Shown here: positions 12,952 to 55,280 of the stretch, piece after piece
Numbering within the stretch: the stretch's first letter is position 1
Layout: each line of letters begins with the position of its first letter
Origin: Sphingomonas cavernae
GTDB taxonomy: Bacteria > Pseudomonadota > Alphaproteobacteria > Sphingomonadales > Sphingomonadaceae
Assembly: GCF_003590775.1 (NCBI RefSeq)
Contig: NZ_QYUM01000003.1
Location: 374,501 to 438,500 of the forward strand
Length of the DNA stretch: 64,000 nt
Direction of reading: 5' to 3'
The notes under the pieces: generated by a model
Told to the model about the DNA's origin: nothing
The model's database searches: none
The model's input: the letters and a program-made list of their open reading frames with translations, nothing else
Translations under genes and position numbers: made by a program

Positions 12952-13107
12952 GGGCTTCGACAGGCTCAGCCCCAACGGTGTTAGATAGCAAGGTGAAATG
13001 CCAACACGCGTTGGGGCTGGATGCCAACAGTGTCCGATACCGGGTCCGAACGGTGCCGAGCCTGTGCTCCTCTACCAACACCATTCGGGCTGAGCCTGTC
13101 GAAGCCC
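12952..13107. repeat. Inverted REP-like pair, left of GIY-YIG gene
   Basis: Two 27-bp units in inverted orientation at 12952-12978 and 13081-13107, about 102 bp apart. Each unit can itself fold (GGGCT ... AGCCC). The space between contains degraded pieces of the same motif (CCGAACGG and GAGCCTGT around 13047-13068). The same 27-bp unit recurs on the other side of the nuclease gene, and half of it near 35742. This is the structure called a REPIN when two REPs face each other. Confidence 0.85.
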
Positions 13108-13141
13108 TTTCCTTTTCTATTCAGATACCTAACTTCAGCCC

Positions 13142-13432
13142 ATGGCATTCTGGACCTACATGCTCCACTGCGCCGATCGCAGCTTCTATGTCGGTCACAC
13201 CGACGATCTCGAACGCCGCATTGCGGAGCACGAAAGCGGCATCTTCGTCGGTTATACCCACAGCCGCCGCCCGGTAGCGCTGGTCTGGTCGGAATATTTC
13301 CAGACAAGGCTCGAAGCACTTGAGGCCGAGCACCGCATAAAGGGCTGGACCCGCGCCAAGAAGCTCGCGCTCATTCGCGGCGACTGGGGCGCGATCAGCG
13401 TGCTCGCCCGGAATCGGACTGAAGAAAAATAG
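13142..13432 (+). CDS. GIY-YIG nuclease domain protein
   Basis: 96-residue single-domain GIY-YIG endonuclease. The two signature strands are WTYMLHC and FYVGHT, followed by the catalytic-region Arg in LERRIAEHESG and the Glu-containing helix RLEALEAEHRIKGWTRAKKLALI. It has no DNA-binding extension, like the UPF0213/UvrC-nuclease small proteins. The substrate is unknown. It is bracketed on both sides by inverted pairs of a 27-bp repeat; the right-hand pair begins on the last base of its stop codon and the left-hand pair ends 34 bp before its start. No clear ribosome binding site is visible. The association suggests the nuclease and the repeats move or are maintained together. Confidence 0.88.
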   Translation: MAFWTYMLHCADRSFYVGHTDDLERRIAEHESGIFVGYTHSRRPVALVWSEYFQTRLEALEAEHRIKGWTRAKKLALIRGDWGAISVLARNRTEEK

Positions 13433-13514
13433 GGCTTCGACAGGCTCAGCCCGAACGGATTGGGTATTGAGCCTCGATCTTTCAGAACCGTTCGGGCTGA
13501 GCTTGTCGAAGCCC
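13432..13514. repeat. Inverted REP-like pair, right of GIY-YIG gene
   Basis: Units at 13432-13458 and 13488-13514 in inverted orientation, 29 bp apart, nearly perfect complements (one difference, GCCTGTC versus GCTTGTC). Both right-facing units here and at 13081-13107 are followed by a similar TTTCC(T/G)TTTCT tail, so the repeated unit extends to about 38 bp. The pair could also act as a transcription terminator for the nuclease gene. Confidence 0.85.
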
Positions 13515-13620
13515 TTTCCGTTTCTTCGCCCCACATCAATCGCTTCCACCCTCTGTCCTACATCGCCGGTTTCGGTCATGGTCGCCGCCGAGCCGATTCG
13601 GTCCGATTCCAGCCAATGCC

Positions 13621-55174: not shown

Positions 55175-55183
55175 AAGACCCTC

Positions 55184-55280
55184 CGTTCGTGTCGAGCGAA
55201 GTCGAGACACGCCTTCCGGAAAATGCTCGACGTATCCGCCGCATTCGGCATCGTCCCTCGACTTCGCTCGGGACAAACGG
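55184..55280. repeat. Inverted repeat pair between ppi and purL
   Basis: Units at 55184-55211 and 55252-55280 share, in opposite orientation, GAGCGAAGTCGAG / CTCGACTTCGCTC, and each has its own short dyad (CGTGTC..GACACG and GTCCC..GGGAC). This is a second REPIN-like family, different from the one around 13 kb. It may end the purL transcript. Confidence 0.75.

Follow-up and report, generated by a model that had tools for sequence, protein, structure and literature searches.

In the 64-kb stretch of DNA analysed in the current work (referred to below as the window), a gene for a small GIY-YIG nuclease was found to lie between inverted copies of a palindromic repeat, and similar arrangements, mostly with other repeats, surround the remaining small GIY-YIG genes of the same genome and many of their relatives elsewhere. 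Within this genome, and among the close relatives that were sampled, the association of gene and repeats is solid. Judged from sequence, the locus is probably a small mobile-type element in which a GIY-YIG nuclease acts as the partner of its own REPs, in place of a RAYT.

The gene (L001) occupies positions 13142..13432 on the + strand, from an ATG start to a TAG stop codon at 13430-13432, and specifies a protein of 96 aa that was recognized as a UPF0213/YhbQ-like single-domain GIY-YIG endonuclease from the ORF list, a PF01541 match, relatives in the PDB and conserved residues. The initial annotation had described a 96-residue GIY-YIG gene between inverted 27-bp repeats, with the right pair beginning at the final nucleotide of the stop codon; the ORF list, Pfam and a repeat search of the window confirmed the former, and the latter is exact, the third repeat beginning at 13432. 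Four copies of the 27-bp unit are present, namely an outer left REP (12952..12978, +), an inner left REP (13081..13107, -), whose CCGTTC-type head (CCATTC in this copy) points away from the gene as judged against the polarity of 17 pairs in the genome, an inner right REP (13432..13458, +), likewise with its head away from the gene, and an outer right REP (13488..13514, -), recovered by both the direct-repeat and the repeat search. The window holds no fifth copy at up to three mismatches, and 100 dinucleotide shuffles of it yielded no match to the unit. Together with an inner pyrimidine tract, the inner left REP makes up the left arm (13073..13129, +) of a 57-nt imperfect terminal inverted repeat, the right arm of which (13410..13466, +) is 77% complementary to it in the inverted-repeat search. 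The proposed nuclease element would span 13073..13466 (+) in the order head-stem, gene, stem-head, as suggested by this anatomy, by repeat polarity, by the layout of a homologous locus (L209) and by the junction seen in a congener (G139), both described below. The outer left REP may be the right half of an adjacent element that has otherwise disappeared. As the sequence 13478-13525 repeats 13071-13118 at 85%, the outer right REP seems to be the left terminus of a further copy of the element.

The repeat of the window consists of a CCGTTC head, a 5-bp stem and an 11-nt loop. Its earlier description as a hairpin has to be qualified, as the hairpin predicted for a single unit is weak (5-bp stem, -3.3 to -4 kcal/mol, z -0.4 to -0.9), in contrast to one dimer located elsewhere in the genome, whose fold is strong (-43.6 kcal/mol, z -12.6). 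The Rfam matches were microRNA look-alikes that stayed below their thresholds, and PADLOC, PHROGs and NCBIfam assigned no family. The window also contains a dimer of a second repeat class, that of the paralog L002, at 55183-55211 (+) and 55252-55280 (-), with heads outward and the sequences CCGTTCGTGTCGAG and CCGTTTGTCCCGAG.

Outside the locus, the 21-bp core of the window repeat (class 1) occurs at 67 sites in the 4.24-Mb genome with up to two mismatches, as compared with no site for the reversed 21-bp pattern under the same conditions. While 33 of the 67 sites are single, the class-1 repeats also form 17 pairs within 200 bp, 15 of which have their heads outward; the two inward pairs are precisely the two facing pairs of the window locus. 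The facing pairs of the initial annotation are therefore real but unusual, and the pair of usual, outward polarity is the inner one (13081/13432), in whose spacer the nuclease gene sits. In the dimer spacers that were inspected, a pyrimidine tract lies to the left and a purine-rich one to the right, as at the inner ends of the window element; tracts and polarity being common to dimers and element, the nuclease gene occupies the place of the dimer's short spacer. Dispersed pairs of fixed polarity with a short spacer are what defines REPIN-like dimers, and the class-1 repeats conform to this; the class-6 pairs counted by eye among those listed for this genome (12) all face outward as well. A RAYT partner was considered and rejected for this genome: PF01797 (Y1_Tnp) is the domain of RAYTs, and it has no match in the whole genome in a search that was positive in 5 of 14 control genomes, so that the earlier remark that no RAYT is present at the locus can be extended to the genome at large.

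The protein itself matches PF01541 with an E value of 4.9e-18, and its relatives among solved structures are the UPF0213 proteins 1ywl (E 6.2e-14) and 1zg2 (E 6.1e-13) and, weakly, SLX1 (E 0.065). It ends 22 aa past the Pfam match, and the Pfam scan detected no further DNA-binding module in it. Residues Y6, Y16, R26, H30 and E63 are present, each being conserved in 97-99 of 99 flanked loci; Y6, Y16, R26 and E63 are the catalytic Tyr, Tyr, Arg and Glu of GIY-YIG enzymes, and with a Pfam domain over the cut-off they place the protein in the GIY-YIG superfamily. In the flanked paralog L009 a Lys stands at the position aligned with E63, and this protein may be inactive because the otherwise kept catalytic Glu is replaced.

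Twelve PF01541 matches were found in the genome, comprising eleven small genes (L001 to L011) and one match in a 642-aa frame that was taken as UvrC. Inverted-repeat searches revealed palindromic inverted repeats close to both ends of all eleven small genes, and the repeats are mostly of different classes from gene to gene: GGGCT..AGCCC at the window gene, GTCCC..GGGAC at L002, ATCCT..AGGAT at L003, AGGCT..AGCC at L004, the mutually similar CATTCCCGC..GCGGGAATCC at L005 and L009, ACCCCGGC..GCCGGGGT at L006, GCTCCTGC..GCAGGAGC at L007, a CCAGC..GCTGG type at L008, CACCCCGGG..CCCGGGGTCC at L010 and an atypical repeat at L011. Seven of these genes are COG2827-like, and at four of the seven (L005, L008, L009 and L010) a CGTC or TGTC tag was recognized by eye beside the palindromic stem, as in CGTC-REPs; the repeat of L010, the one of the four that was measured, has an 8-bp stem and a 5-nt loop. 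The tag position reads GTAC in L006 and GTGC in L007. To score such flanks, 170 nt upstream of a gene were locally aligned with the reverse complement of the 200 nt downstream, with a threshold of 36, which was reached by 11 of 11 small GIY-YIG genes of this genome versus 2 of 930 placements made at random within these loci (a score of 30 was reached by 4 of the 930). In an earlier version of the test, which started from the called ends of genes, 18 of 49 GIY-YIG entries passed, two genes (that of the window and another) being counted twice, versus 1 of 175 ORF controls.

Relatives in other genomes were scored in several samples. A sample of 40 genomes across the phylum, chosen by the domain alone, gave 38 small GIY-YIG entries from genomes other than this one that could be scored, of which 8 reach 36, 11 reach 30 and 27 remain under 30; only part of the GIY-YIG superfamily is repeat-flanked, and most of the phylum sample is not. 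A second sample, which is close to flanked genes by design, was obtained with L006 and L007 as queries against one genome per species over 84,980 species, and consists of the best 80 of at least 462 confirmed stretches (77 entries were scored, since 4 loci of the 80 were too short and another contributed two). Among these best 80, 55 of 77 entries reach 36 and 64 of 77 reach 30; according to record titles, those over the threshold come from alpha-, beta- and gammaproteobacteria, Patescibacteria, Atribacterota, Armatimonadota, Verrucomicrobia, Planctomycetota and others, many of them being metagenome bins. In genomes of the same family, 19 of 23 entries related to the window protein score at least 36. 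Finally, 12 loci were picked by hand among the 59 matches listed for a plasmid collection and scored with wider flanks, and 7 of the 12 reach 36: Neisseria gonorrhoeae (105), A. lipoferum 4B (84), M. bullatum (70), Sphingobium (63), N. aromaticivorans pNL2 (62), Aeromonas caviae (46) and S. meliloti (36). S. parapaucimobilis and P. agardhii score 33, and R. tumorigenes, S. paeninsulae and Photobacterium, at 15-17, are without such repeats. Homologs elsewhere are often flanked, but usually by a repeat type of their own and not by the 27-bp unit.

By eye, many of the foreign homologs have flanking repeats tagged with CGTC or TGTC. In N. gonorrhoeae (L229, 770-2105), the GIY-YIG gene lies inside an array of 11 dRS3 motifs within 3.3 kb, the motif pattern being taken from PMC3898611, where dRS3 is reported as a target of filamentous phage integration. 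Among COG2827-like loci, 48 of 71 could be scored for polarity (23 were unscored), with 41 outward, 6 inward and 1 tie; two of the six "inward" loci (L010 and L233) begin with CGTC by eye, which makes them outward. As a side observation, a first look at G106, a genome of the same family, gave 15 and 19 GIY-YIG candidates with two queries, the most of 99 genomes.

The match between repeat class and protein was evaluated in 99 loci with a score of at least 36 (11 from this genome, 8 from the phylum sample, 55 from the contigs of the best 80 of at least 462, 18 from the family and 7 from the plasmid collection). Loci centred on a single repeat (L012-L041) and duplicates were left out of both the flank counts and this comparison, which also dropped scores below 36. 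Protein similarity and repeat similarity are correlated with a Mantel r of 0.60, a value attained in 0 of 2000 permutations, the largest of which gave 0.15. Shared host ancestry can add to such a correlation, and the paralogs of one genome therefore weigh more. For five of them (L001, L002, L006, L007 and L010), whose nearest foreign homolog lies above 0.70 in normalised similarity, the repeat of that homolog resembles the cognate repeat at 0.83-1.00 and the other repeats of their own genome at no more than 0.57; repeat similarity as used here includes the loop, so that L001 and its nearest foreign homolog L193 appear alike though their stem ends differ. L004 passes narrowly (0.37 vs 0.33), and L003, with its nearest foreign homolog at 0.70, fails (0.35 for the cognate vs 0.50 for another repeat), as do four further paralogs with a nearest foreign homolog at 0.54-0.64. 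Overall, 6 of 11 paralogs pass and 5 of 11 fail. The pattern is consistent with recognition of each repeat class by its cognate nuclease, which we infer.

Numbers of repeats were then compared across 99 genomes of the family. Class-1 repeats (at most one mismatch) are present in 40 of the 99 and are commoner in genomes with an L001-like gene (11 of 99; p 0.0066), and class-6 repeats are commoner in those with an L006-like gene (6 of 99; p 0.0003); the cross-controls gave p 0.035 for class 6 against L001-like genes and p 0.25 for class 1 against L006-like genes. The highest class-1 counts are those of G057 (52), this genome (G000; 51), G116 (36), G048 (30) and G085 (25). Flanks were inspected for all 13 L001-like matches at E<=1e-36 and for all 14 at E<=1e-12 in 14 repeat-rich genomes, and among these a gene directly between class-1 repeats was seen in this genome, where it is intact, and in G048 (L209), where it is frameshifted; no inspected match in G057, G116 or G085 is so placed. 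The gene of G085, a candidate for flanking by class 1, was rejected as such, given that another repeat class adjoins it and class 1 occurs only outside. Among the six L006-like genes, only that of this genome adjoins class-6 repeats, L251, L253, L254 and L255 having other repeat classes and L252 (G064) being decayed and without a clear pair. A strict copy-number link between gene and repeat is not upheld, as G057 carries 52 repeats with no cognate found vs 51 here; the earlier prediction that repeat number follows the gene agrees with the class-1 statistics and not with this pair of genomes, and holds only loosely. Repeats can remain after the loss of their gene or manage in its absence; REPINs have likewise been reported in E. 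coli genomes that contain no RAYT (PMC8049555). The broader proposal of a REP system tied to a GIY-YIG enzyme is supported well beyond the locus, with a mixed outcome for the two findings named as counting against it, i.e. homologs lacking flanking repeats and equal repeat numbers with and without the gene.

REPs are common intergenic repeats, and they might simply gather beside small dispensable genes while being moved in trans by RAYTs or IS transposases. Of the 99 family genomes, 18 contain Y1_Tnp, including G048, G134 and G079, which are rich in repeats; it shows a weak association with class 6 (p 0.04) and no clear one with class 1 (p 0.10). However, four of the five genomes richest in class-1 repeats (G000, G057, G116 and G085) have no Y1_Tnp, chance placement seldom reproduces the flanks found at all small genes of this genome and at 55 of 77 of the best 80 of at least 462 relatives, and repeat similarity tracks protein similarity, so that such a coincidence is very improbable.

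Comparison of syntenic sites revealed presence and absence of the element. Four congeners have lpd with neither the nuclease gene nor class-1 repeats after it, and in the congener G139 lpd is directly followed by the same amidohydrolase gene, the element being absent. The locus L209, from another genus, encodes a homolog with 66% identity and has the same repeat, tracts, polarity and layout as the window element, with a reading frame broken by a frameshift near its start. Other homologs in decay are L213 and L252, with one in-frame stop each, and Sphingobium TYG73 (L248), with a one-base gap in the gene. The cassette of A. lipoferum separates sufB from sufC, and three related Azospirillum species have neither gene nor repeat there. 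In the Sphingobium plasmids TYG64 and TYG74 the gene is absent, and at the same place stands one palindrome with heads on both ends, CGTCAC(C/G)CCGGGTCAAGCC(C/G)GGGGTGACG; TYG72 has neither gene nor palindrome and carries unrelated sequence at the site. Such a double-headed form is what would remain if, the repeats being palindromic, the DNA between direct half-stems of the two flanking repeats were deleted, and insertion of a cassette into a double-headed palindrome would read the same. The exact pattern occurs in 1 of 249 loci, and neither a target-site duplication nor a precise insertion boundary was found at the loci compared. Separately, the locus L219 of the congener G057 has a class-2 REP dimer after a PAP2-like gene, from about position 704, and the window has none after 15633; dimers, too, hence differ between congeners.

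These sites also bear on a different origin, in which the repeats spread by other means and a selfish GIY-YIG gene cuts REP sites and is copied into them, each paralog having adapted to one class. GIY-YIG enzymes are classical homing nucleases, the lone palindrome of TYG64 and TYG74 lies exactly where relatives have the gene between two repeats, and the repeats are more numerous than the genes and remain in genomes in which no cognate was found. Against such a homing-type parasite, the empty site in the three Azospirillum relatives is free of repeats, the genome has no Y1_Tnp to move the repeats, and the gene lies in the spacer of a pair of ordinary polarity with like inner tracts, which fits an autonomous and a non-autonomous form of one element better. 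This origin is considered unlikely, though it is the most credible of the alternatives.

A domesticated role in upkeep was weighed as well, whereby the nuclease, like SLX1, would process REP cruciforms by trimming or resolution, and its expression would be influenced in cis by the flanking repeats. SLX1-type enzymes act on branched DNA, the nearest solved relatives of the window protein are UPF0213 and, weakly, SLX1, and the active site is conserved. Furthermore, in the lineage of L003 the GIY-YIG sequence lies beside an RNA methyltransferase gene in nine loci, forming one open frame with it in eight (L003, L072, L194, L200, L202, L205, L206 and L211) and being adjacent to it in L235; 4 of the 9 score at least 36, and this lineage looks vertically kept and not mobile, which counts against the mobile-type reading preferred below. 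The fusion in L003 has 376 residues, and in some of the loci the linker is apparently translated from repeat sequence. A role in upkeep leaves unexplained both the presence and absence of the cassette at syntenic sites and the occurrence of 11 paralogs with mostly different repeats in one genome, and is improbable.

For the preferred reading, that of a mobile-type element, the following course of events is envisaged. The element consists of the nuclease gene together with two of its own palindromic repeats, which face outward and have the gene as their spacer, and the scattered REP dimers would be gene-less derivatives of it, as REPINs are to RAYT elements. The nuclease would recognize the folded head-plus-stem of its own repeat class and cut there; GIY-YIG enzymes hydrolyse DNA and do not join it, so that host repair or replication would have to complete the copying or loss of the element. 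Cutting, and spread driven by it, are what we infer from the arrangement. The findings suggest that this enzyme family supplies the partner hitherto missing for a large class of repeats dispersed in bacteria. In its widest form, the proposal makes GIY-YIG proteins the dedicated mobilising enzymes of a bacterium-wide REP superfamily (CGTC-type, CCGTTC-type, relatives and dRS3), with a hydrolytic nuclease and host repair working in parallel to the RAYT/REPIN system and with gene and repeat co-evolving by class; we regard the chances of this as evenly balanced.

Among known systems, UPF0213/YhbQ and SLX1-type proteins belong to the same domain family as the window protein (1ywl, 1zg2). A C-terminal PHD-type domain is given for the SLX1-type family (PMC7017083), for which a protein of 96 aa has no room, and the window gene differs from most small GIY-YIG genes of the phylum sample in being tied to repeats. 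Free-standing GIY-YIG homing endonucleases resemble the present case in the presence or absence of a nuclease gene at syntenic sites; in contrast, the window gene is intergenic, lies between its own inverted repeats and has no extra Pfam DNA-binding module. CGTC-REPs are defined by an unpaired CGTC tag, an 8-9 bp stem, a 4-5 nt loop and a CCA-type tail; they "apparently lack a dedicated transposase", and in the species named by the authors they flank no tyrosine transposase gene (Di Nocera 2013, PMC3733652). GIY-YIG does not occur in the main text of that paper. The repeats at L005, L008, L009 and L010 and at many foreign homologs resemble CGTC-REPs, neisserial dRS3 included, in their CGTC or TGTC tags, whereas the window repeat, with its CCGTTC head, 5-bp stem and 11-nt loop, falls outside the four families of that paper. 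Among the papers listed by full-text searches, from which bioRxiv and most subscription journals are excluded so that a report elsewhere is possible, none was seen to link GIY-YIG genes with REPs. A single small gene beside the repeats, class by class, makes the question of the CGTC-REP partner testable at the bench. The closest parallel is the REPtron of RAYTs, in which a single small gene likewise lies between two inverted REPs, the repeat class is tied to the gene and gene-less REP doublets (REPINs) are dispersed in the genome. It differs in its enzyme, a Y1/HUH tyrosine transposase unrelated to the GIY-YIG protein found here, and in its GTAG-type head, which is replaced by CCGTTC/CCATTC in the window and by CGTC/TGTC and others elsewhere. 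Because the enzyme class differs, the window element is not a member of the RAYT family; it may well work like one, and if the proposal is true, REP systems arose at least twice, with unrelated enzymes.
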